A stretch of 32,133 nt of DNA from Oscillospiraceae bacterium (GTDB lineage: Bacteria > Bacillota > Clostridia > Oscillospirales > Ruminococcaceae): assembly GCA_017461245.1 (NCBI GenBank), contig JAFTYW010000049.1:1-32133 (forward strand). Direction: 5' to 3'. The number at the start of each line of letters is the position of its first letter. Position 1 is the stretch's first letter. The notes under the pieces were generated by a model. That model saw nothing but the letters and a program-made list of their open reading frames with translations. It had not been told where the DNA came from and did no database searches. Below, in pieces: positions 1 to 31,777 of the stretch. The position numbers were made by a program, and so were the translations under genes.

Positions 1-1
1 C

Positions 2-658
2 ACAAAGTTGCGTTGCGGTAAATGTGATTGTTTTATGGTTGGTGAAAGCGGAACGAGCAAGACCTCAACCGTATATCGTTATTACAAATGCGTTGGTGTT
101 AAAAAACACAGCGGTTGCGATAAGAAAACCATAAAGAAAGATTGGATAGAAGACTTTGTTGTAAAGCAAATTGAAAAAGTGCTTTTTGATGATGTTCTCC
201 TTGAAAAGATTGCCGATACCATAATGGAAATCCAAGGCAAAGAGAATGCTGTTTTGCCGATGCTCAGAAAACAGTACGCTGACATTCAAAGAGGTATTGA
301 TAATCTTCTCAATGCCATTCAGCAAGGCATTGTTACTCCATCCACCAAGCAACGCCTTGAAGATTTGGAAAAGCAAAAGAGCGACATCTCTGTTCAAATC
401 ATCAAAGAGGAAATGTCAAAGCCGTTGCTTACAAAAGACCAAATTCTCTTTTGGTTCCACCGTTTCCGCAAATACAATACTCGCCGTTTAGACCATAAGC
501 GCAGACTGATTGATAGCTTTATCAATACGATTTATCTGTACGATGATAAAATGGTGATAACCTTTAACTATAAAGACGGCTCTGAAACCGTTAGTCTGAG
601 TGAAATTGAAAACTCAGATTTAAGTTCGGATTTAACTGCATCCGCTCTGCCAAAATAA
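2..658 (+). CDS. Large serine recombinase, C-terminal part (5' truncated by window edge)
   Basis: The reading frame is open from base 2, so this is the 3' part of a longer gene. It begins inside a recombinase zinc beta-ribbon (CGKC near residue 4 of the visible part, then YYKC and a later Cys). A helical, probably coiled-coil region follows (residues about 80-140), with a basic C-terminal tail. This matches the C-terminal half of large serine recombinases, which integrate and excise mobile elements; the catalytic serine domain would lie upstream of the window. The family assignment rests on the zinc ribbon plus coiled coil. It differs in sequence from the second serine recombinase at 10125-11720. 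A strong terminator follows the stop codon. It may mark the end of an integrated element, since such genes usually sit at element termini. Confidence 0.85.
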   Translation, partial: TKLRCGKCDCFMVGESGTSKTSTVYRYYKCVGVKKHSGCDKKTIKKDWIEDFVVKQIEKVLFDDVLLEKIADTIMEIQGKENAVLPMLRKQYADIQRGIDNLLNAIQQGIVTPSTKQRLEDLEKQKSDISVQIIKEEMSKPLLTKDQILFWFHRFRKYNTRRLDHKRRLIDSFINTIYLYDDKMVITFNYKDGSETVSLSEIENSDLSSDLTASALPK

Positions 659-1254: not shown

Positions 1255-2094
1255 ATGGCAAGAATTATTACAAGTGCAAGGATTGGAGATTTTGAAAGCT
1301 ATCTTCGTTCGGATGAAAAGAGCGAAAACACGATTGAGAAGTATCTGCGTGATGTAAGGGCGTTTTGTGGGTTTGCAGGTGCAAAAGAAGTTAGCAAAGC
1401 GGTGGTTATGGAATTTAAGGCTTCACTTGTTGAGACTTACGAGGTTACAAGTGCCAATTCTATAATTGCGGCAGTGAATGCTTTTCTGCGGTTTATGGGT
1501 TGGATGGATTGTTGTATTAAGCAGTATAAGGTGCAGAAAAAAGCCTTTTGTTCTGAAGAGAAGGAACTGACGAAAGCGGAATATATCCGTCTTGTGAATA
1601 CCGCAAAGCAGAAAGGCAACGAGCGATTGAACCTAATCCTACAGACAATTTGCGGAACGGGCATCCGTGTAAGCGAATTGCAGTTTATAACTGTCGAAGC
1701 AGTACGCAAGGGCGAAGCGGTAGTTTCCTGTAAAAATAAAACCCGAACGGTGTTTATCATTCGGGAACTGCAGAAAAAACTATTGAATTATATTAAGACC
1801 AAGGGTATTGCCACAGGATGTATCTTTATCACGAAATCCGGCAAACCAATGAGTCGATGCAATATCTGGCGTGAGATGAAAGCGTTATGTGAGCAGGCAG
1901 GGGTATCTCCAGAAAAGGTATTTCCCCATAACCTTCGCCATCTGTTTGCCAGAACATTCTACGGCATTGAAAAGGACATTGCCAAGCTTGCTGACATCCT
2001 CGGTCATAGTAGTATCAACACCACTCGAATTTACATCATCACTACCGGTGCAGAACATAAACGCAAGATGGAAAATATGCGGCTAATAATATAA
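1255..2094 (+). CDS. Tyrosine recombinase, probable invertase of the adjacent inverted repeats
   Basis: A 279-residue phage-integrase-type recombinase with an N-terminal SAM-like core-binding domain (about 8-90) and a C-terminal catalytic domain. The catalytic set is visible: Arg138 in GTGIRVSEL, His225 and Arg228 in HNLRH, His251 in LGHSS and Tyr260 in TRIYI; Lys160 or Lys162 is the likely beta-hairpin lysine. The start has a good ribosome site (ATAGGAGGTAATATCAA before ATG). The short length, without an N-terminal arm-binding domain, is typical of Xer-like and invertase-type enzymes rather than lambda-type integrases. Its stop codon lies 27 bp from the left inverted repeat of an apparently invertible promoter, so those repeats are its likely substrate. 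That link is inference from adjacency. Confidence 0.92.
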   Translation: MARIITSARIGDFESYLRSDEKSENTIEKYLRDVRAFCGFAGAKEVSKAVVMEFKASLVETYEVTSANSIIAAVNAFLRFMGWMDCCIKQYKVQKKAFCSEEKELTKAEYIRLVNTAKQKGNERLNLILQTICGTGIRVSELQFITVEAVRKGEAVVSCKNKTRTVFIIRELQKKLLNYIKTKGIATGCIFITKSGKPMSRCNIWREMKALCEQAGVSPEKVFPHNLRHLFARTFYGIEKDIAKLADILGHSSINTTRIYIITTGAEHKRKMENMRLII

Positions 2095-2116
2095 AAACCG
2101 ATACCTACGGTATCGG
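2087..2116 (-). terminator. Minus-strand terminator just outside the left inverted repeat
   Basis: Reading leftward: stem CCGATACC / GGTATCGG with loop GTA, followed by TTTTTATATTATT. The T tract lies only on the minus strand and overlaps the last codons of the recombinase. It would stop the transcript made from the invertible promoter in its present orientation, protecting the recombinase from antisense transcription. Confidence 0.75.
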
Positions 2117-2121
2117 CAAAT

Positions 2122-2144
2122 AACATAATCGACATTATGTTGCA
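2122..2144. repeat. Left inverted repeat of the putative inverton
   Basis: Its reverse complement matches 2390-2412 at 22 of 23 positions. Each copy is itself nearly palindromic, with arms CAACATAAT and ATTATGTT(A/G) around GTCG, as expected for a tyrosine-recombinase core site. Confidence 0.85.
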
Positions 2145-2187
2145 TTCAATTACTATACATTAATATCAATCACAACATTATAAAAAT

Positions 2188-2216
2188 ATTATAGCATAAA
2201 TTCGACCGTAAATCAA
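2188..2216 (-). promoter_or_regulatory. Sigma-A promoter inside the invertible segment
   Basis: On the minus strand: -35 TTGATT (2216-2211), 17-bp spacer, -10 TATAAT (2193-2188) preceded by TGC, giving an extended -10. Predicted start near 2181, transcription leftward. It is the best promoter match in the segment. Confidence 0.8.
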
Positions 2217-2269
2217 CTGATTTTGCAATTTTTTCAAAGGTTTGGTTGATGAAAACGAAACATTGAACA

Positions 2270-2327
2270 TGACAAAAGAGCCTTTCCTTAATCTTTCTTT
2301 ATGAAGTGTGGAAAGGCGTTTTTGTCA
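2270..2327. terminator. Strong hairpin, probably a bidirectional terminator, inside the invertible segment
   Basis: Arms TGACAAAA-GA-GCCTTTCC and GGAAAGGC-GT-TTTTGTCA with T-rich flanks on both strands. In either orientation it would insulate the promoter side from the other side. Confidence 0.65.
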
Positions 2328-2389
2328 TGCCCTTTAATTACTGTTATTCAGTTTTAAATATGTAAATAGGCACGGACTGCCTAAACGTT

Positions 2390-2412
2390 TACAACATAAT
2401 GTCGATTATGTT
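2390..2412. repeat. Right inverted repeat of the putative inverton
   Basis: Inverted copy of 2122-2144 with one mismatch (second base). It ends 5 bp before the AGAGGAGG ribosome site of the SPFH gene. Confidence 0.85.
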
Positions 2413-2433
2413 GCAAATAGAGGAGGTAGTTAA

Positions 2434-3606
2434 ATGGCACAGATTGCCGAAATCATTAAATACGAAGGCGATAATAGCACCTTTATATGGAAGCATCCGT
2501 GCGAGGATTTTAATACGACCACTCAGTTGATCGTACATGAAAGCCAAGAAGCCATATTCTTTATGAATGGTCAGGCGCTTGACTTGTTCGGCCCCGGGCG
2601 ACACACTCTAGAAACGCAAAACATCCCGCTACTTAGAAAATTCATCAATATTCCTACCGGTGGCGAAACACCGTTCCATTGTGAAGTCTATTTTATCAAT
2701 AAGATTGAGCAGATGGCTATTAAGTGGGGCACAGATAGTAAGGTTCAGTATGTAGAACCTACATACAAGTTTCCGTTATCAATCGGTGCATCCGGTGAGA
2801 TAGCACTTAGCGTGGAGGATTCCCGTAAGTTGCTTGTAAAACTGGTCGGAACAGAGCGAGTTCTTGACAGAAATCAACTTACTACTTTCTTCCGAGCATT
2901 CCTGATGACAAGGATTAAGACCTATATCGCACAGGAAATGAAAGCAAGTGCTATCAACATTTTTGAGATTGACGAAAGTCTTGAAGTATTTTCAAAGGGC
3001 ATACAGACTCGTTTGCTGGGTGATTTTGAAGAATACGGCGTTACATTAAACCGCTTCTTTGTGACTACCATTGTAAAACCTGATGGTGATCCACAATATG
3101 AAAAGTTTAAGGAGCTTCATTTTCGTCAGTATGCCGATATTGCGGAAGCAAAATTAAAGCAACAGACTGATGTAATTTATGCTCAGACCGAAGCACAAAA
3201 GACAGTTATCGAATCACAGGCGCTGGCACAAAAACGTGCAACCGAAGGTTATACCTATCAACAAGAACGTGGTTTTGATGTTGCCGAACACGCTGCACAA
3301 AACGAAGGCATTGGCGAGTTTACCAATATGGGTGTTGGACTTGGCATAATGTCAGGTATTGGCGGAACCGTCGGCGGTATGGTCGGAGGCGCAGTCAATG
3401 ATGCTTTTGCAGGTGTGGCAGTACAACCTCAATCGGCAAGCAACGCTTTTTGTGATAACTGCGGTGCAAAACTAACACCCGGTGCAGCCTTCTGTGATGA
3501 GTGTGGAACACCGCAATTACCACCGGATATTTGTAGCCACTGCGGATTTAAGTTTGTTAAATCTGGTAAATTCTGTCCCAAATGCGGCAACAAAAGGGAG
3601 GGTTGA
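2434..3606 (+). CDS. SPFH-domain protein with C-terminal double zinc ribbon (YdjI-like)
   Basis: A 390-residue protein. The N-terminal ~215 residues resemble the SPFH/virion-core family (KHPCEDF, an immediate-early strand-rich region, then KTYIAQEM). An Ala/Gln/Glu-rich helix (about 225-280) and a Gly-rich segment (about 295-330) follow. Two zinc ribbons end the protein: CDNCG...CDECG and CSHCG...CPKCG. In Bacillus subtilis, YdjI of this family is linked to PspA-type membrane stress proteins. By analogy it may scaffold membrane-associated assemblies, but that is inference. ATG follows AGAGGAGGTAGTTAA with good spacing. It is the first gene of a three-gene set (3-bp gap to the next) and lies directly downstream of the invertible promoter segment, so its expression is probably phase-variable. 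Confidence 0.85.
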   Translation: MAQIAEIIKYEGDNSTFIWKHPCEDFNTTTQLIVHESQEAIFFMNGQALDLFGPGRHTLETQNIPLLRKFINIPTGGETPFHCEVYFINKIEQMAIKWGTDSKVQYVEPTYKFPLSIGASGEIALSVEDSRKLLVKLVGTERVLDRNQLTTFFRAFLMTRIKTYIAQEMKASAINIFEIDESLEVFSKGIQTRLLGDFEEYGVTLNRFFVTTIVKPDGDPQYEKFKELHFRQYADIAEAKLKQQTDVIYAQTEAQKTVIESQALAQKRATEGYTYQQERGFDVAEHAAQNEGIGEFTNMGVGLGIMSGIGGTVGGMVGGAVNDAFAGVAVQPQSASNAFCDNCGAKLTPGAAFCDECGTPQLPPDICSHCGFKFVKSGKFCPKCGNKREG

Positions 3607-3609
3607 TAA

Positions 3610-4278
3610 ATGAAGAAAAATAAGAGTATGGCTTATGCTATCTTAGGAATAGCATTTGTACTGTTTAATGTTATTGCTTTCGCCATCCCAGCCGCAAAAA
3701 ACGCAACCTTTTGGATTGCTTATGTATTTACAGCAATCGCTTTTGCATTGCAGATCAGTATATGGAAATTCGCTTTCAAAGGAACGGATACATTAAAAAG
3801 CAAATTCCTTGGTATTCCGCTTATATCGGTCGGAATTACATATTTAATCATTCAGATTATTGCGTTTGCAATATTTATGGCGTTTCCAATAGCGCCAAGC
3901 TGGATTGCTATTATAATATGCTCATTGATACTTGGCGTTTCGGCAATCTGTTTGTTTGGTACGGAAACGGGCGGAGAAGAAATCAACCGAGTTGAAGAAA
4001 AGGTCGAGACGAAGGTCTTTTACATCAAGTCGCTTCAGGTTGATTTGGAAATGCTGGCGAGTGCAGAACCGGATGCCGATACAAAAATGGCACTTACGAA
4101 ACTTGCTGAGAAAATTCGTTTTAGCGATCCTATGAGTAATGAAGCACTTGCAGGCCTTGAAGCAGAAATCGCTGATAAGGTCAAAGAACTCAAAACAACT
4201 AAAAACAAATCGGCAATTATTTCAGTCATTGATTCGCTTATTACCGAGCGAAATAAAAGAGCTAAAACATTGAAATAG
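3610..4278 (+). CDS. Four-helix membrane protein with cytoplasmic helical tail
   Basis: A 222-residue protein of unknown family. Four hydrophobic segments are visible at about residues 8-28, 33-53, 68-92 and 97-117. A charged, mostly helical tail follows (about 120-222), rich in Glu and Lys with heptad-like spacing, probably cytoplasmic and possibly coiled coil. It starts three bases after the SPFH gene and is followed 16 bp later by a zinc-ribbon/CFI-box gene, so the three are probably co-transcribed. The likely role is a membrane anchor or partner for the two zinc-ribbon proteins. No catalytic motif is seen. Confidence 0.8.
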   Translation: MKKNKSMAYAILGIAFVLFNVIAFAIPAAKNATFWIAYVFTAIAFALQISIWKFAFKGTDTLKSKFLGIPLISVGITYLIIQIIAFAIFMAFPIAPSWIAIIICSLILGVSAICLFGTETGGEEINRVEEKVETKVFYIKSLQVDLEMLASAEPDADTKMALTKLAEKIRFSDPMSNEALAGLEAEIADKVKELKTTKNKSAIISVIDSLITERNKRAKTLK

Positions 4279-4294: not shown

Positions 4295-5371
4295 ATGAAA
4301 CAATTGGCATGTGAAATGTGCGGTAGCACGGATTTAGTTAAACAAGATGGCGTATTTGTTTGCCAGTCGTGCGGCTGTAAATATTCAATCGAAGAAGCAC
4401 GGAAAATGATGGTAGAAGGAACGGTTGATGTTACAGGGAGCACTATCAAAGTTGATACTTCCGACGAGTTGAAAAACTTATACCAAATTGCACGACGCTC
4501 AAAGGATGCTGAAAACAATGAGAATGCAGCCAAATACTATGAAATGATTTTAATAAAAGATCCTAAAAGTTGGGAAGCAAATTTCTATTCTGTTTATTAT
4601 AAAACAATGTCTTGTAAGATCGGAGAAATTGCGACTGCCGCTACAAATGTTAGCAATTGTATAAAGGAAACTTTTCAACTCATCCATGATAATGTGATTG
4701 AGTCAGAAGAACGCAAAGAAGCAGTACTCGAGGTAAGGGATCGAGTGAAAAAGATCTCCGATATGCTCTTTAGTGCAGCTAATTCACATATGAACAATAT
4801 CGATCCATTAGTAAAAGCACAATTTCAAGGTCAGTATTTAGCAAATGCAATCGCCGCAGGAGGAATACCTAAGTATGTATGCGATAGCTTGTGCGACATT
4901 TTTATTGATGATGAAGACGTAATGAGTACCATTGGTATTCAGATATTAAAAGATCGAATTGCAGAAGGAATTGCAGTAGATGCAGAGAATACTTATGTAA
5001 AAGCAATCAAAAAATTTGATCCATCATATCAGCCCCCTAGGAATCAAACAACAGCGGATATAATGAAATCGATTGAAACAACAAGTTCGACTACAAGTAG
5101 TGTGGGTTGTTATGTGGCTACTGCAGTATATGGCTCTTATGATTGTCCGCAAGTGTGGACACTTCGTCGTTACCGTGACTATACCCTAGCTGAAACTTGG
5201 CACGGCAGAGCATTTATCCGCACATATTATGCAATCAGCCCCACTCTCGTAAAATGGTTTGGCCATACCTCTTGGTTCAAGAAAATGTGGAAAGGTAAGC
5301 TTGATCGTATGGTTGCTAATTTGCAGGCAAAAGGTGTTGAATCCACACCATATAAAGATAAAAAATGGTAA
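4295..5371 (+). CDS. Zinc-ribbon, TPR-like, CFI-box C-terminal protein
   Basis: A 358-residue protein with three parts. The N-terminus is a TFIIB-like zinc ribbon (CEMCGSTD...CQSCGCKY, residues 4-30). A helical middle (about 50-250) contains a TPR-like stretch (NAAKYYEMILIKDPKSWEAN). The C-terminus matches the CFI-box domain: CYVATAVYG, TLRRYRDYTL, GRAFIRTYYAISPTLVKW, about residues 270-325. The CFI box is a recurrent C-terminal module of unknown function, found on diverse bacterial proteins. A good ribosome site (GACAGGAGAA) precedes ATG. It is the last gene of the putative phase-variable operon and is followed by a terminator. Function unknown. Confidence 0.85.
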   Translation: MKQLACEMCGSTDLVKQDGVFVCQSCGCKYSIEEARKMMVEGTVDVTGSTIKVDTSDELKNLYQIARRSKDAENNENAAKYYEMILIKDPKSWEANFYSVYYKTMSCKIGEIATAATNVSNCIKETFQLIHDNVIESEERKEAVLEVRDRVKKISDMLFSAANSHMNNIDPLVKAQFQGQYLANAIAAGGIPKYVCDSLCDIFIDDEDVMSTIGIQILKDRIAEGIAVDAENTYVKAIKKFDPSYQPPRNQTTADIMKSIETTSSTTSSVGCYVATAVYGSYDCPQVWTLRRYRDYTLAETWHGRAFIRTYYAISPTLVKWFGHTSWFKKMWKGKLDRMVANLQAKGVESTPYKDKKW

Positions 5372-5484: not shown

Positions 5485-7134
5485 ATGTTTAAACGCAGTA
5501 TGGATGAAGAATACATTTTTATGACAAGAACATTCTGGCTTGAGATGAATATTCCTTTGAAATTTGTTAATCAAAAATATAAGGGATATTTTGGAGCCGA
5601 TAAAAAAGTTATAGAAGACAGGAAAGAAGCAATTAAAATACTCTCTTCTATAATTGGGCAAATGCAATCTCAATTTGTAAACTGGTTGAAATCTGAAAAT
5701 CCTAATGCTGTTATAAAAGATTTATATAAAGTGTTAGATGAATGTTTTAACTTTTACATAAAGCAGAAGGCTGCAAGGAAAAAGCTAGTAGAATTGAATG
5801 TTAGTGACGATAGCATTGTTGAGGTTTTCGTAAGAAATCGCAATATGGCACAAAGTGTAATCGACTCAGTGAATCTGTGGATAGAGAATTGCTTGTTGTT
5901 CCAAGAAGCGATTGAAAAACCATACGATAATAAATCTTTTGAAATTAATCAAGAACTATTTATAGATCTTTATATTTATGGAACTGTGTCGAAAGCCCTG
6001 TCCCTATTAAATTTGAGCAAAAAGTTTGGAGAAAAGAATCTGTATTACGGAATTAGTATTACGCCTGATAATGAAGAACCTATAGAAATTCTCAAGTATC
6101 ATCCAGTAATTCACTTTAATACATTGTTGATGGGTAATCAAGATGCCTTTCAAGTTAGCATAAATGAATATAAAAATGCCAGTGCAAGCGAGTTTGGTAA
6201 AGGCTTTAAAGATGAATATGGCGTTGATTTTATTCTTGCATTGAGAACTATGTCAACTTTGCAAGCAGACATGCTCCATGACGGGAAATATGCTTACACG
6301 GTGATTGATAAAAATCAGTTTATACAGTGGATCAACAAATATACCGGCGGACAAGTTGATGGGAATTGGTTCTTTGAGGCATTTACACTAACCAAAAACA
6401 ATATTTGTTCTCAGCTCAAAGAGAATGATCCAATTGTTTGGATAATGAGCGTTAATAAATATCGTCACGAAATTCGCCCCTTTGTATGTTTGGAGAACGA
6501 AAGAATTGCAATCTCCAATATGGCGATAGAACAAGCCAAACATTTGTGGCTCTCATATTTTGCAAATGGTGGAATGATATATTCTAATTGTTCAGATAAT
6601 CTAACGATAGCTATAGAAAAGCGTAATGAAGAATTATCAGAAAAACTTGTAGCAATGCTTAGGGATAAACTGCGTTCCCATTATGAAGCTGGGTTTGATG
6701 AAATAGATGTTCAATATGATCGGATTTTTGAGGAGAGAGATTATAATTACGGAGATTATGATCTTGTCTTTTATGCAAAGGATGTAAATGAATTGTTTTT
6801 AATTGAAGCAAAATTTTTCTCTGATTCTTTTAGCAATAGCGGAATCATCACAGATTATGAAAAAATGTTTAAGAAAAAGGGGTACTATGAGCATTGTAGG
6901 AAAAGATATGATCTCGTTTTAAGCGAGCCAGACAAAATAAAACAATTTATAGGTATTCCTGGTGATGTGAATGTTCATTTTCTGTTCGTATCCTCAAAAC
7001 CTTTGGAATTTGAATTTACCGATCAAGATGGTATAGTAACATTTCCGTGCCTTTCAAATTTTGACGATTACTTAGAAGGAAAGCTTCTGCCTGAGATTGG
7101 TGATATACCAGTAAGATCTACCCATAGAATATAA
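5485..7134 (+). CDS. Unknown 549-residue protein with C-terminal PD-(D/E)XK-like nuclease signature
   Basis: I do not recognise the family. Most of the protein (1-400) is soluble, mixed helical and acidic, without recognisable motifs. Near the C-terminus, Asp426 in DYDLVFYAKD is followed by Glu441-Ala-Lys443 in LIEAKFF, each at the end or start of a hydrophobic strand. That is the D...ExK core of PD-(D/E)XK nucleases, and a helix with YYEHCRKRYDLV follows. The possible role is DNA cleavage, as in restriction-type or defence enzymes, but no methyltransferase, helicase or NTPase partner is adjacent. It has its own promoter and terminator, so it is probably monocistronic. The gene is AT-rich compared with the core genes after 12.6 kb. 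The start is an ATG after AAGGATGGCGAACTAA. Confidence 0.7.
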   Translation: MFKRSMDEEYIFMTRTFWLEMNIPLKFVNQKYKGYFGADKKVIEDRKEAIKILSSIIGQMQSQFVNWLKSENPNAVIKDLYKVLDECFNFYIKQKAARKKLVELNVSDDSIVEVFVRNRNMAQSVIDSVNLWIENCLLFQEAIEKPYDNKSFEINQELFIDLYIYGTVSKALSLLNLSKKFGEKNLYYGISITPDNEEPIEILKYHPVIHFNTLLMGNQDAFQVSINEYKNASASEFGKGFKDEYGVDFILALRTMSTLQADMLHDGKYAYTVIDKNQFIQWINKYTGGQVDGNWFFEAFTLTKNNICSQLKENDPIVWIMSVNKYRHEIRPFVCLENERIAISNMAIEQAKHLWLSYFANGGMIYSNCSDNLTIAIEKRNEELSEKLVAMLRDKLRSHYEAGFDEIDVQYDRIFEERDYNYGDYDLVFYAKDVNELFLIEAKFFSDSFSNSGIITDYEKMFKKKGYYEHCRKRYDLVLSEPDKIKQFIGIPGDVNVHFLFVSSKPLEFEFTDQDGIVTFPCLSNFDDYLEGKLLPEIGDIPVRSTHRI

Positions 7135-8819: not shown

Positions 8820-9788
8820 ATGAGCAAACAGGAAAAAGCCGAAAGCGGTGCGTATCGGAATTTGCTTAATCAAATCGAACCCATTGAAAAGCATAACCGT
8901 ATTGGTTCGAAGAAAACCAAAAAACGATACAAAAGCGCAATACGTTCCTTTATACGCTTTGCTGCCGACAGGTACAATTTGCAGAAGTTTGTGAATACAG
9001 GACAAAAGCATGTGGAGGCATATGCTGAGGAAATGAAAAAGTATAAAGCTCCAAGTACTGTTATGGTAGATTTGTCAGCTATACGTTTTTACTACGATCT
9101 TGCAGGCGGAAAAAATTATTTGGGAGATAACAAGTCCTTCGAGCTTGAAAAACGTGAACCTACAGCCCTCGATCACTCGTTTTTACCCGATGAGATTACC
9201 GAAGCAATAAACACTGCATTGGATATGAAGCGTGACGATGCCTTCTTAGGTATTCGTATTACCTATCGTTTTGGATATCGTATCGAAGAAGCTTGTCGTA
9301 TGACCTACGGTGATGTGTTAAAGGCTTTGGAAAACGGTGAGATCAAGGTTAAGGGCAAGGGCGGTCAGATTCGCTATGTCCCCGTTGAGACCGATGAACA
9401 GAAGTCGCTTCTTAATGATTTGTGTGTTTATGCAAAGAAGAAGGGGCTTAAACCTAACGATATGCTGATTACTGATAATGTAACCGGCGGTGTGGAAAAG
9501 AAAAAGGCATCTCTTGAAAACTGGATGTACAACAATCGTAAAAAGTTTACCGTAGCCAATCGTACCGAAATAGTAAAGCCCGGAAAAAAGCCCCGTACTT
9601 CCAAAATATCCTGGCACGGATTGCGTCACACCTACGCACAGCAGACCTATGAACGCTATATTCGTGAAGGTATGTCGGTAGAAAATGCTTTGCGCAAGGT
9701 TTCGGAAAACTTAGGTCATCATCGTATGTCCATTACCGACGTGTATTTAGACGAAAACGTTGCAAGCAAGCTCAAAAAGAAGAAGTAA
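8820..9788 (+). CDS. Tyrosine recombinase / integrase
   Basis: A 322-residue phage-integrase-family protein. The N-terminal core-binding domain spans about residues 8-100. The catalytic domain shows Arg in YRIEEACR (~158), His and Arg in WHGLRH (~263-268), LGHHR (~298) and the nucleophile Tyr in TDVYLDE (~308). A basic tail (KLKKKK) ends the protein. ATG follows AGAAAGGAGGATGCTCTT. It is followed 12 bp later by a TnpW-like gene and then a large serine recombinase. Its family is distinct from the 279-residue recombinase at 1255. It probably serves integration or excision of a mobile element; the att sites are not identified. Confidence 0.9.
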   Translation: MSKQEKAESGAYRNLLNQIEPIEKHNRIGSKKTKKRYKSAIRSFIRFAADRYNLQKFVNTGQKHVEAYAEEMKKYKAPSTVMVDLSAIRFYYDLAGGKNYLGDNKSFELEKREPTALDHSFLPDEITEAINTALDMKRDDAFLGIRITYRFGYRIEEACRMTYGDVLKALENGEIKVKGKGGQIRYVPVETDEQKSLLNDLCVYAKKKGLKPNDMLITDNVTGGVEKKKASLENWMYNNRKKFTVANRTEIVKPGKKPRTSKISWHGLRHTYAQQTYERYIREGMSVENALRKVSENLGHHRMSITDVYLDENVASKLKKKK

Positions 9789-9800
9789 GAAAGGGGTTCT

Positions 9801-9956
9801 ATGGACAGGAAAGCAGACAATGCTTTCAGCGTGACGGAACAAACGCATATTAAGATCGGTAAAACCGAATACATTGTAAACGCCCATTATGCCGACAGTA
9901 TGACCTTATTCGAAAAGCTGTTGCGTTTAATGATAAAAGACTTAGACAAAAACTGA
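9801..9956 (+). CDS. TnpW-like small transposon protein
   Basis: A 51-residue protein (MDRKADNAFSVTEQTHIKIG...) with the TnpW-type core IGKTEYIVNAHY followed by a helical tail, EKLLRLMIKDL. TnpW is the small protein of Tn4451/Tn4453-type elements, found near the large serine resolvase TnpX; its exact function is not settled. ATG follows AAGAAAGGGG. It sits between the integrase and the serine recombinase, as in that family. A short hairpin (CGGAAGGG/CCCTTCCG, 9961-9980) follows the stop. Confidence 0.75.
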   Translation: MDRKADNAFSVTEQTHIKIGKTEYIVNAHYADSMTLFEKLLRLMIKDLDKN

Positions 9957-10014
9957 AAGCCGGAAGGGGTAACCCTTCCGTACATACCGTTTAGAAATTA
10001 AGGAGGAATTTTTA

Positions 10015-10071
10015 ATGCTTATCAAAACTAAATTGACAATTTCAGCAAAACTGCTTGCAAGACCGCCGTAA
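10015..10071 (+). CDS. Possible 18-residue leader peptide before the serine recombinase
   Basis: MLIKTKLTISAKLLARPP, preceded by a strong ribosome site (AAGGAGGAATTTTTA). It ends 53 bp before the serine recombinase start. It may be a translational leader or the remnant of a longer small gene. Support is only the ribosome site and position. Confidence 0.4.
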   Translation: MLIKTKLTISAKLLARPP

Positions 10072-10124
10072 CTGGAGTTACAATGGCAATTCAAGCTGTT
10101 TGTTGCTGAAAGAAAGGAGTATAA

Positions 10125-11720
10125 ATGGAACAGCAACGAAACAGAACTGCTATATACTGCCGCTTATCCCGTGAAGATGGTGACGGCGAGAGTATGAGCA
10201 TAGGAAATCAGCGTGAGATGTTAGTCCGTTATTGCAAAGACAACGGCTTGCTTGTGGTTGACATTTACATTGACGATGGATTCTCGGGTACGAATTTCGA
10301 AAGACCGAATTTTCTGAGAATGATCCAAGATATTGAAGACGGAAAAATTGATGTTGTTCTCGTTAAGGATCAATCCCGTATTGGCAGGGAGCATTTGCAG
10401 ACCGGATATTATATGGAAATCTTCTTTGCAAATCACGATGTCCGATTCATAGCGGTTAACGACAACGTAGACACCGAAAAAGGTGACAACGATTTTATGG
10501 GTTTTCGTAATATTATCAACGAGCTTTACGCAAAAGACATATCCAAGAAGATCCGTTCCGCAAGAAAGACTTTGGCAAAGCAAGGCAAGTTTACCGCACC
10601 TTTTGCACCTTATGGGTACAAGAAAGATCCTGATAACAAGCACCGTCTTATTATTGACGAAAACACTGCACCCATCGTTAAAAGAATGTTTCAACTGACA
10701 ACCGAGGGTAAAACGCCTACGGAGATTGCTGAAATATTCACAGCAGAAAAGATTTTAATTCCAAGGGCGTATGTGGCGAAGACTTACGGGATTTATCTTA
10801 CGGGTTATGACATCCGTTATCCGTATGATTGGATGGGCAATACGGTTGCTTCGATTCTCAGAAGCAAGCTGTATATAGGAACTTTGGTCAACCACAGAAG
10901 AACAAGCAAATCCTTTAAGAACAAAAAGATTATCCAGCTTCCCGAAGATGAATGGATCGAAGTGGAAAATACCCACGATGCCATCATTGACCGTGAAACT
11001 TGGGACATTGTTCAAAAGATGGTTGCAGTAAAGAAGCGTCCGAACAAAAACGGTGTGAGTCAGATTTTTGCAGGATTGGTGCGTTGCCCTGATTGTGGTA
11101 GAGCTTTATCCTACAATATCGGAACATACAAGGACTTTGAAGGTAGCTTTGTTTGCAATTACGCCAAGAACAAGGGTAAGAAATACTGCACTTGGCACTA
11201 TATCACCTACAAGGCTCTTTACCAAACCGTTCTTGCTGATATTCAAAGACACGCCGCACTTTTGAAAAAAGACTGTGCGAAGTTTGAAGAAGCCTTACAG
11301 TCGCATATGTCATCTCAAAACAAAAAGCAGCTTGCCTCGCTTAGGAAAGAACAAGGCAAACTGCAAATGAGACTTGAAGAGCTTAGTGTAATCACCAAGA
11401 AACTCTACGAGGACAATGCGCTGTCAAGAATTTCGGATGATGAATATGGTCGGCTTTCGGCACAGTTTTTTGGCGAACGCAAAGAAGCGGAGGAACGTTT
11501 ATTTGCCATCACTGAAGAACTTAGAACGGAAGAACGCAATCTTGAAAACGTTGCACGCTTCACCAAAATTATCGGAAAGTATCTTGACATTAAAGTGCTT
11601 GACAAAACAGTGCTGAATGAACTGATTGATAGGATCGAGGTTCATGAAGCAGAAAAGATCGACGGCAAGCGTGTTCAGAAGGTCGATATCTACTACCGCT
11701 TCGTCGGTAATCTAAACTAA
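10125..11720 (+). CDS. Large serine recombinase, TnpX-like
   Basis: A 531-residue recombinase. The N-terminal resolvase domain (about 6-150) has the catalytic Ser15 in YCRLSRED and the arginine-containing segment KDQSRIGREH. A recombinase domain (about 165-290) contains APYGYKKDP. A zinc beta-ribbon follows (CPDCGRALSY...FVCNYAKN...KKYC, about 322-360), then a coiled coil (about 375-470). This is the complete TnpX/Tn4451-type architecture, which excises and integrates elements through a circular intermediate. ATG follows GAAAGGAGTATAA. With the TnpW-like gene it probably marks the right end of a mobile element that finishes between here and about 11.8 kb. No terminal repeats were recognised. 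Confidence 0.93.
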   Translation: MEQQRNRTAIYCRLSREDGDGESMSIGNQREMLVRYCKDNGLLVVDIYIDDGFSGTNFERPNFLRMIQDIEDGKIDVVLVKDQSRIGREHLQTGYYMEIFFANHDVRFIAVNDNVDTEKGDNDFMGFRNIINELYAKDISKKIRSARKTLAKQGKFTAPFAPYGYKKDPDNKHRLIIDENTAPIVKRMFQLTTEGKTPTEIAEIFTAEKILIPRAYVAKTYGIYLTGYDIRYPYDWMGNTVASILRSKLYIGTLVNHRRTSKSFKNKKIIQLPEDEWIEVENTHDAIIDRETWDIVQKMVAVKKRPNKNGVSQIFAGLVRCPDCGRALSYNIGTYKDFEGSFVCNYAKNKGKKYCTWHYITYKALYQTVLADIQRHAALLKKDCAKFEEALQSHMSSQNKKQLASLRKEQGKLQMRLEELSVITKKLYEDNALSRISDDEYGRLSAQFFGERKEAEERLFAITEELRTEERNLENVARFTKIIGKYLDIKVLDKTVLNELIDRIEVHEAEKIDGKRVQKVDIYYRFVGNLN

Positions 11721-30231: not shown

Positions 30232-30268
30232 AAAAAAATCGCCCACGCAAAAGCGTGAGCGATTTTTT
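30232..30268. terminator. Terminator of the tRNA-Ser(GCT) gene
   Basis: AAAAAATCGC(C)CACGC / GCGTGAGCGATTTTTT with an AAAA loop, immediately after the tRNA CCA end. Confidence 0.85.
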
Positions 30269-30358
30269 GGCGGAGACGGAGGGATTTGAACCCTCGCACC
30301 GGTTACCCGACCTACTCCCTTAGCAGGGGAGCCTCTTGAGCCACTTGAGTACGTCTCC
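30268..30358 (-). tRNA. tRNA-Ser (GCT)
   Basis: Class II tRNA with acceptor GGAGACG/CGTCTCC, anticodon loop CTGCTAA (anticodon GCT), long variable arm, T-arm GAGGGTTCAAATCCCTC, and encoded CCA. Confidence 0.95.
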
Positions 30359-30395
30359 GTATGGTTCAACTGTTTTAAAACAATTTTAAGTTGTT

Positions 30396-30484
30396 TGGCG
30401 GAGAGAGTGGGATTCGAACCCACGGTTCCTTGCGGAATCACTGGTTTTCAAGACCAGCTCCTTAAACCACTCGGACATCTCTCC
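30396..30484 (-). tRNA. tRNA-Ser (TGA)
   Basis: Acceptor GGAGAGA/TCTCTCC, anticodon stem-loop CTGGTCTTGAAAACCAG (anticodon TGA), long variable arm, T-arm GTGGGTTCGAATCCCAC, and encoded CCA. Confidence 0.95.
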
Positions 30485-30644
30485 TCAGCGCAAGGTATAT
30501 GATACCATATTCTTTATAGAAAAGTCAAGGGTTTTAAGGTATTTTAATAAAATTTTCAGAGTTTAAAATCCACTTTTACAATTTATTGCATAAAAATTTA
30601 AAATATGATAGCTCGAGTGGCAATTCCTGTAATTTTTGGGCTGT

Positions 30645-30992
30645 CTATTTTCTGATTTTATTCTTAATAAGAATAACACCCGTGGAAATCAGTACTATTA
30701 AAATGAGTGCTAAGCAAATTATAGAGCTAAAAAACATTACAGTGTAAATACCGTGAGCGATGCCTAAAATCACAAGAAAATACAAAAGAATATTGGCTCC
30801 GTCAGACAAAAGGGAATTGTTCAATAGCTTGTATAATACAAACGAGAAAATCAAGCTTGAGGCGGCACATAAAACAATAGAAACAATAGAATGAAAAACG
30901 GGAATGTATCTGTCAAACTGAAGTGGCAGCATAAGCGCAAAGAATATGACGCCAAACAGAATGCTTACAGATGTTTTGAGATTTCTTTTCAT
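30645..30992 (-). CDS. Small four-helix membrane protein of unknown function
   Basis: About 115 residues with four hydrophobic segments (about 10-27, 33-56, 66-85 and 88-110) and short charged ends (MKRNLKTS and KNKIRK). No family recognised. ATG at 30992 has AAAGGCGG about 8 bp upstream; a GTG three codons earlier (31001) overlaps that site and is less likely. It lies alone between tRNA genes on the same strand, and its region is A/T-rich. It may be an orphan accessory gene. Confidence 0.65.
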   Translation of the reverse strand: MKRNLKTSVSILFGVIFFALMLPLQFDRYIPVFHSIVSIVLCAASSLIFSFVLYKLLNNSLLSDGANILLYFLVILGIAHGIYTVMFFSSIICLALILIVLISTGVILIKNKIRK

Positions 30993-31031
30993 TAAATTCA
31001 CCGCCTTTATTTAATTTTACCATAATAAAAT

Positions 31032-31144
31032 AAAAAGGGCAAGGCAAAGCTTTGCAAAATACCTTTTCACTATTCACTATTACTTATTACCTTCCAAAAA
31101 TCCGAGTATTTAAGAGAAAAGTGAAGAGTGAAGAGGCAATAGTG
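31032..31144 (-). repeat. Intergenic repeat, copy 2
   Basis: Reverse complement of the family seen at 11745-11835: on the minus strand it runs CACTATTGCCTCTTC..., TTTTCTCTTAA, CGGATTTTTGGAAGGTAATAA, AATAGTGAATAGTGAAAAGG, TTTTGCAAAGC. It contains the tandem word CACTATT. Confidence 0.75.
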
Positions 31145-31152
31145 AAAAAAGT

Positions 31153-31185
31153 AAAATCCCCGTATCTTGCGATACGAGGATTTTT
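31153..31185 (-). terminator. Terminator downstream of tRNA-Gln
   Basis: AAAATCC(C)CGTATC / GATACGAGGATTTTT with a TTGC loop, abutting the tRNA CCA end. Near-copy of 858-889. Confidence 0.8.
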
Positions 31186-31261
31186 GGCAGGGCTGGGTGG
31201 ATTTGAACCACCGAGGTGACGGAGTCAAAGTCCGTTGCCTTAACCACTTGGCGACAGCCCT
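31185..31261 (-). tRNA. tRNA-Gln (TTG)
   Basis: Acceptor AGGGCTG/CAGCCCT, anticodon loop CTTTGAC (anticodon TTG), T-arm GGTGGTTCAAATCCACC, and encoded CCA. Confidence 0.95.
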
Positions 31262-31331
31262 ATATATAAAATTTCCCTCAATATAAAGCCCGCAAAGCAG
31301 ACCTCATATAAAGGGGCATTTTAGTTAAATA

Positions 31332-31409
31332 TGGGGTGGGAGATGGGATTCGAACCCACGATCTCCAGGACCACAATCTGGCGCTTTAACCGACTAAGCT
31401 ACACCCACC
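31332..31409 (-). tRNA. tRNA-His (GTG)
   Basis: Anticodon loop TTGTGGT (anticodon GTG), T-arm GTGGGTTCGAATCCCAT, discriminator C with encoded CCA. The extra G at -1 that pairs with C73, typical of tRNA-His, is encoded at 31409. Confidence 0.93.
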
Positions 31410-31414
31410 ATGTC

Positions 31415-31491
31415 TGGCGCGCCAAAAGGGACTCGAACCCCTGACCTACTGCTTAGAAGGCAGTTGCTCTATCCAGCTGAGCTATTGGCGC
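31415..31491 (-). tRNA. tRNA-Arg (TCT)
   Basis: Acceptor GCGCCAA/TTGGCGC, anticodon loop CTTCTAA (anticodon TCT), T-arm AGGGGTTCGAGTCCCTT, and encoded CCA. Confidence 0.95.
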
Positions 31492-31540
31492 ATATTTTGT
31501 TTTGCAGTAAGCCACTAATTCAAAATGGCTTATAAAAAAA

Positions 31541-31614
31541 TGGAGCGGGTGATGGGAATCGAACCCACACAACCAGCTTGGAAGGCTGGGATTCTACCAT
31601 TGAACTACACCCGC
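31541..31614 (-). tRNA. tRNA-Gly (TCC)
   Basis: Acceptor GCGGGTG/CACCCGC, anticodon loop CTTCCAA (anticodon TCC), T-arm GTGGGTTCGATTCCCAT, and encoded CCA. Confidence 0.95.
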
Positions 31615-31620
31615 ATACTA

Positions 31621-31695
31621 TGGTGACCCGTACGAGAATCGAACTCGTGTTACAGCCGTGAAAGGGCCGTGTCTTAACCTCTTGACCAACGGGCC
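31621..31695 (-). tRNA. tRNA-Glu (TTC)
   Basis: Acceptor GGCCCGT/ACGGGTC, anticodon loop CTTTCAC (anticodon TTC), T-arm ACGAGTTCGATTCTCGT, and encoded CCA. Confidence 0.95.
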
Positions 31696-31700
31696 GTATT

Positions 31701-31777
31701 TGGTGGCGGTAACTGGATTCGAACCAGTGACACCGCGGGTATGAACCGCGTGCTCTAGCCAGCTGAGCTATACCGCC
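31701..31777 (-). tRNA. tRNA-Met (CAT), elongator type
   Basis: Acceptor GGCGGTA/TACCGCC fully paired at position 1-72 (initiators usually are not), anticodon loop TTCATAC (anticodon CAT), T-arm ACTGGTTCGAATCCAGT, and encoded CCA. It is the first gene of the minus-strand tRNA operon. A lysidine-modified tRNA-Ile2 cannot be excluded by anticodon alone. Confidence 0.9.

Follow-up and report, generated by a model that had tools for sequence, protein, structure and literature searches.

Our results show that the window, the whole 32,133-nucleotide stretch of DNA analysed here, very probably carries a recombinase-linked invertible promoter, and that the recombination sites of its relatives tend to be spaced in phase with the DNA helix. 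Judged from its sequence, the switch very probably works, as a member of the known invertible-promoter kind. The initial annotation had read the region as an inverton. This interpretation is supported by the core identity and opposite orientations found in relatives, and for the window strain itself we infer inversion. The same portable module of recombinase and flipping promoter precedes very different genes in Clostridia, mostly in MAGs from animal guts.

Anatomy of the switch

The anatomy of an invertible promoter, with inverted repeats flanking a promoter segment, is present in the window (Table 1). The two arms are complementary at 21 of 21 positions, with 249 nt between them. The left arm reads AACATAATCGACATTATGTTG and has a perfect inverted copy on the right; each arm is near-palindromic by itself (AACATAAT-CGAC-ATTATGTT). 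When extended to 2122-2144 and 2390-2412 the repeats match at 22 of 23 positions and leave 245 bp between them, in agreement with the two near-palindromic 23-bp repeats described initially. The gene-free 245-bp segment and its distance from the tyrosine recombinase gene had also been given correctly: the stop codon ends at 2094, leaving a 27-bp gap to the left repeat, and no gene was found in the 249-bp segment among open reading frames of at least 60 aa. By calculation, chance alone would give about 1e-6 perfect 21-bp inverted repeats, with arms within 300 bp, in 5 kb of the local composition. No other occurrence of the repeat pattern, with up to two mismatches allowed, was found in the 1.77-Mb assembly (88% complete).

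Table 1. Features of the window discussed in the text
Feature	Position	Strand	Basis or remark
Large serine recombinase, end portion	1-658		cut by contig start
Tyrosine recombinase, 279 aa, presumed invertase	1255..2094	+	Pfam Phage_integrase (PF00589) 8e-25
Terminator for leftward (OFF-state) transcript, in gap between switch and recombinase	2097..2117	-	9-bp stem, then T run
Left inverted repeat	2122..2142	+	crossover site ACATAA-TCGACA-TTATGT 2123-2140, 6-bp core 2129-2134
Invertible segment, 249 bp	2143..2391	.	between repeats; inversion seen in relatives
Sigma-A-type promoter TTGATT-17-TGnTATAAT	2188..2216	-	points to recombinase (OFF); conserved in alignment
Hairpin within segment, probably bidirectional terminator (insulator)	2268..2329	.	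folding, both strands
Right inverted repeat	2392..2412	-	crossover site 2394-2411, core 2400-2405
Ribosome-binding site AGGAGG of operon	2421..2426	+	sequence
Cargo gene 1: SPFH/Band-7, C-terminal double zinc ribbon	2434..3606	+	Pfam Band_7_1 1.7e-34, DZR 1.5e-9
Cargo gene 2: 222-aa protein, membrane-like by eye	3610..4278	+	no Pfam match
Cargo gene 3: CFI-box-CTERM protein	4295..5371	+	NF041770 4e-21
549-aa protein, possibly cargo, 113-bp gap upstream	5485..7134	+	no Pfam match

The recombinase contains R138, K162, H225, R228, H251 and Y260, which we take to be the catalytic residues R-K-H-R-H-Y of the tyrosine recombinase family, and which are kept in 100-102 of 102 relatives. Its closest solved structure by sequence is 4a8e, which is XerC-like. 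With 109 and 113 bits the protein stayed below the curated cut-offs of the XerC and XerD models (335 and 330), and with 28 and 26 bits below those of the NCBIfam tyrosine-type DNA invertase models NF007370 and NF007371 (221 and 222), which we assume to be of the FimB/FimE type.

The promoter with extended -10 that had been reported to face away from the following operon was recovered on the minus strand at 2216-2188. In a PWM scan of the segment its strand scored 12.9 and the other strand 5.8, against a 95% level of 10.5 for the better strand of shuffled segments. A consensus scan of 1.4 kb returned eight promoter-like sites compared with 4.7 +/- 2.5 in shuffles, and the window promoter was not exceptional there. 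It is conserved in the relatives L025, L026, L028 and L040 (in L040, from the cultured Massiliimalia timonensis, without the TG). Since the promoter of the assembled contig is directed away from the SPFH operon, the assembled state is OFF, as had been claimed. The contig represents one consensus, and most cells were presumably OFF.

Folding of the hairpin at 2117-2097 together with the left repeat gave -18.9 kcal/mol (z -3.9), and the hairpin inside the segment gave -29.5 kcal/mol on either strand (z about -6.8). Such structures recur among the 83 loci with matched sites in the first set of relatives (see below). Terminator-like hairpins on both strands were found in 55 of these 83 segments compared with 2.4 of 83 after shuffling, and a minus-strand terminator between recombinase and left site in 34 compared with 12.2. 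A plus-strand terminator in that place was found in 11.

These elements suggest how the switch would operate. The recombinase would bind both ACATAA-N6-TTATGT sites and bring them together in a tight loop, which in the window measures 271 bp (~26 helical turns); a strand swap at the identical 6-bp cores would then invert the 249-bp segment. In the OFF state the promoter would fire toward the recombinase, with the hairpin at 2117-2097 ending its transcript and the one at 2268-2329 blocking read-through into the SPFH operon. In the ON state transcription would start near 2353 (by arithmetic), cross the right repeat and continue over AGGAGG into the SPFH operon; the 2268-2329 hairpin would then lie behind the promoter. 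The adjoining recombinase probably carries out the inversion in the window strain, and the flip is likely to alter expression of the SPFH operon.

Further along the window, the region 8820-11720 holds a second tyrosine recombinase and a complete large serine recombinase with DUF4368 (the serine gene at 10125-11720). Possibly, the recombinase genes on either side of the module and its cargo are remains of mobile elements. Eight tRNA genes (Ser, Ser, Gln, His, Arg, Gly, Glu, Met) are clustered on the minus strand at 30268-31777.

Core covariation and orientation across relatives

Relatives were sought in 61 related genomes, 396 genomes of the family and 398 of the phylum (the window's own counted in each), and also among genome contigs. 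Recombinases matching at E <= 1e-45 occurred in 90 of the 396 family genomes and 9 of the 398 phylum genomes. We analysed 166 recombinase loci, the window included, comprising a first set of 127 and a hold-out of 39 out of 40 (L181 failed the match rule). No two of the 166 gene ends are identical, and six pairs exceed 93% identity. Outside both sets lie L001-L023 (short-flank matches, of which the recombinase ones were refetched), the weak matches L060-L064, the DNA matches L096-L115, 14 unfetched family and phylum matches, and L116 and L119, which represent the same place as L040 (G186:C3:75899-76729). Among viral contigs three relatives were found, with 34-35% identity, and the best match on a phage record (L221) showed no sites by the arm motif.

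Sites were picked by their arms alone, with a match required at 9 or more of the 12 arm positions of ACATAA-N6-TTATGT and the middle six bases ignored, and a two-site locus was defined by sites 150-420 bp apart, the first at most 130 bp from the recombinase stop. The arm motif was derived from the earliest relatives and is not independent of those, whereas the core is independent. Two-site loci numbered 114 of 166 (86 of 127 in the first set, 28 of 39 in the hold-out). The 6-bp core was identical and inverted in 108 of these 114 pairs (83 of 86 and 25 of 28), compared with 0.9% of pairings between different loci. The six remaining pairs matched at 2, 2 and 1 core positions in the first set and at 5, 2 and 1 in the hold-out. 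The first set contains 59 distinct cores, none of them palindromic. Strand exchange by a tyrosine recombinase requires just such a core, variable among loci and almost always identical within a locus. In the 108 matched loci the sites are inverted, 206-385 bp apart, and adjoin the recombinase gene, which removes the concern, raised at the outset, that the repeats might not be conserved beside the recombinase.

The other 52 of 166 loci lack a two-site pair under the arm motif. Contig ends interrupt some of them: of all 166 loci, 19 break off inside the gene or no more than 300 bp past its stop (16 of the 127 in the first set and 3 of the 39 held out). In other pairless loci, such as L071, L077 and L080, no sites were visible by the arm motif. 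Contig ends near the recombinase would fit flipping, but repeated copies would do likewise, and we rejected them as a sign of it. Likewise, we dropped the idea that cores are private to avoid cross-talk, because differences within a genome are expected by chance at 0.9% cross-locus identity. One genome (G263) has two copies of the module with the same core, while other same-genome copies mostly differ. Another, G042, yields eight complete or truncated recombinase matches, each at or close to the end of a contig and several with the same left site (contigs C11, C7, C20, C5, C1, C9, C30 and C6, corresponding to L083-L085, L089-L091, L093 and L095); these may form a cross-reacting set of several copies. 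In L031, L042, L059, L067, L069 and L219 one of the two sites is present a second time nearby (at 63 bp in L069 and 55 bp in L219), so that more than one segment is possible there.

Promoter states were called where the best score was above 9 and exceeded the other strand by 1.5. Over the 108 segments this gave 21 ON, 70 OFF and 17 unclear calls (4, 15 and 6 in the hold-out alone). As 17% of shuffled segments also satisfy the rule, individual calls may be wrong. The OFF majority may reflect the commoner state in guts or a costly ON state.

The initial annotation had proposed a comparison of orientation in related genomes. Both states do occur with matching flanks in the family, while the four alignable relatives of the window (L025, L026, L028 and L040) are, like the window segment itself, all OFF. 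Among alignable segment pairs compared both ways, 21 had the same orientation and 8 were inverted. In L034 and L039, from different MAGs, upstream and downstream flanks match and the inversion lies exactly between the repeats, with five mismatches inside. L140 and L151 carry the segment inverted relative to L142, with matching flanks, and L031 and L038 are inverted with only the upstream flank matching. More distant inverted pairs are L037 and L042 against L066, and L164 against L169; the inverted pair L158 and L159 represents two copies in one genome. In addition, a contig of 17,949 bp (G014:C19) consists of two 100% identical inverted arms of 8,843 bp around a 263-bp centre. This palindrome is the expected product if an assembler joined both orientations of a flipping segment; alternatively, it might be an assembly artefact of another kind.

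In a search of the family for the window segment in the opposite orientation, 26 of 396 genomes matched at E <= 0.001, and the sole strong match besides the window itself, in G186 at the place of L040, had the same orientation as the window. The one relative with the same cargo, L025, also shares the window's orientation. L029, with SPFH cargo 71% identical, was called ON (11.6 against 9.3). The single orientation of the window segment and its four alignable relatives might suggest a former switch, homologous to active modules, that no longer inverts in the window lineage. We consider such a loss very improbable, because the repeats are intact at 21 of 21 positions, the catalytic residues of the recombinase are preserved, and the cores differ among these five loci yet match within each of them, which points to continuing recombination or selection.

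The invertible promoter also has to be weighed against explanations without a switch. An alternative explanation might be that the recombinase is the integrase of a mobile element and the repeats its binding or att sites, with no inversion. The region does sit between serine-recombinase genes (1-658 and 10125-11720), and relatives were found on plasmid records. Yet exact inversion between the repeats distinguishes orthologous loci, and inverted repeats 206-385 bp apart adjoin the gene in 108 loci; we give this explanation almost no credence. The prevalence of promoters directed at the recombinase (70 of 108 loci) could instead mean that the promoter acts mainly leftward, its antisense transcript regulating the recombinase while the operon is driven from elsewhere. 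This seems very improbable to us, since the window has a terminator between promoter and recombinase, as do 34 of 83 loci (by the same rule it is absent in the other 49), and since ON promoters face cargo, for example in L029, where the right repeat is 25 bp from the SPFH gene. The invertible promoter remains our preferred reading.

Helical phasing of sites and promoter

The centre-to-centre distances between sites cluster about 230, 240, 251, 261, 272, 284 and 294 bp. Within the first set (n=83) the best period in the range 5-20 bp was 10.55 bp, with a mean resultant length of 0.60 (jitter null p <= 2e-4), and the period is still present when a single locus represents each recombinase cluster, for clusters formed at 90, 80, 70 and 60% identity (n=79, 64, 41 and 20). 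The phasing was noticed in this first set, and a prediction was then written before the hold-out was fetched. The hold-out (n=25) gave R(10.5) = 0.51 at a phase of -0.7, where -1.0 had been predicted (V-test p = 1.8e-4); its best period taken alone was 10.9. The hold-out is new data, but most of it came out of the family and phylum searches that had also supplied the first set, and it is not free of kinship with that set. Over all 108 loci R(10.5) was 0.58 (0.59 over 27 clusters at 60%), and 82 of the 108 fall within 2 bp of 10.5k-0.96 compared with 41 expected. Six of the 108, L142 included, are about 3.5 bp or more off phase. Four plasmid loci were examined afterwards: L220 fits the phase, L217 misses it by 4.5 bp, and in each of L218 and L219 there are two possible site pairs that differ in fit.

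Two control distances outside the segment were unphased, namely from the recombinase stop to the left site (R(10.5) = 0.11) and from the right site to the first methionine (R(10.5) = 0.05, n=95). We regard the measured helical phasing as very probably real. Quantised spacing is expected of a short looped synapse, and the simplest reading is that sites 20-37 turns apart pair in a stiff short loop only when they face the same way.

Phasing also holds for the distance from the promoter -10 to the nearer site (R = 0.70 in 85 of 91 called loci, the six omitted having distances of 80 or more; 0.61 over 23 clusters at 60%). Phasing of the promoter is without a cause as simple as that for the two sites. 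It suggests that the promoter occupies a chosen face of the loop or lies beside bound recombinase. A possible, if tentative, extension is that RNA polymerase at the promoter is physically coupled to the recombinase synapse, such that transcription and flipping influence each other. The measured phasing suggests that site spacing and promoter-to-nearer-site spacing evolve mostly in whole turns; helical pitch would then set the geometry of the switch in this recombinase family, with the promoter kept on a fixed face of the loop. About 100 diverged natural switches thereby offer an evolutionary read-out of synapsis geometry, and integer-turn spacing predicts which segment lengths invert.

Cargo genes and comparison with known systems

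The module through its right repeat is closely similar in the window, L026 and L028, and the DNA beyond the repeat is unrelated. Downstream alignment scores against the window were 19 and 18 for these two loci, and 414 for L025. In L025 the SPFH protein is 95% identical to that of cargo gene 1, and the 549-aa protein is 92% identical over residues 1-496, where L025 ends. By eye, the C-terminal stretch YDLVFYAK...LFLIEAKFF of the 549-aa protein resembles a PD-(D/E)xK nuclease motif. SPFH cargo recurs in the window, L025, L029 and L041, and also in L116 (the L040 locus), where the SPFH gene comes second; relatives of cargo gene 2 stand beside SPFH in L025, L029 and L041. An SPFH gene, a small protein and a variable third gene form a recurrent arrangement behind the switch. 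A sequence search returned no solved-structure relative of the SPFH protein.

We compared 40 cargo proteins from relatives with Pfam, taking first genes and a number of later ones; 11 had no family, and several of the matches were below the curated cut-off. The other proteins include M73/camelysin-like, cohesin and dockerin proteins, one MACPF/Big_3 protein, Wzz, one HerA-type ATPase, DEAD-type helicases and TetR regulators, and also an FHA/trypsin protein after which come a PP2C phosphatase and a kinase. The cargo range of the module thus extends over SPFH operons, surface proteins, helicases, regulators and kinases. Behind the SPFH operon of L041 lies a gene for a TPR-TIR protein (9136-11697), and in the window the SPFH gene has the CFI-box-CTERM gene behind it. 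PADLOC returned no match for nine window proteins, and we therefore do not call the cargo a defence system; the TPR-TIR protein in the L041 operon is a lead only in that direction.

Among known systems, fimS of E. coli with FimB and FimE shares a tyrosine recombinase and a ~300-bp promoter segment, and differs in having two recombinases and control by IHF and Lrp. The window protein scores far below the cut-offs of both NCBIfam invertase models, as given above. The invertible promoters of Bacteroides capsule loci (Mpi/Tsr) likewise have a promoter between inverted repeats, and differ in their recombinases, their promoter type and the many sites served by each master invertase. In Clostridioides difficile, one recombinase, RecV, serves several distant sites. 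In contrast, the window recombinase adjoins the only such site found in its assembly. The RecV switches have in common with ours a recombinase with inverted repeats and phase-variable expression in Clostridia, and the flagellar switch is reported to act through Rho (PMC7446863; PMC9286219; PMC5386303). The enhancer system of Hin concerns a serine recombinase (PMC3798978).

Helical phasing in an inverton family is the new part here and worth following up; our targeted searching, with most subscription journals and preprints outside its scope, found no report of helical phasing of inverton sites. Invertible promoters themselves are a well-described kind. Inverton group 139 comprises 33 invertons, 32 of them from Clostridia, and is linked to tyrosine recombinase group 35 (PMC11892184). 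Its reads show both orientations, and by coordinates its invertons span ~255 bp in Clostridium sp. D5 and Intestinimonas butyriciproducens. Core covariation, terminator layout and helical spacing are unmentioned in the passages of that paper on which we draw. The window family resembles this group in its occurrence in Clostridia, its nearby tyrosine-type recombinase/integrase and its similar span. From these passages, it is likely that the window family corresponds to inverton group 139 and invertase group 35.
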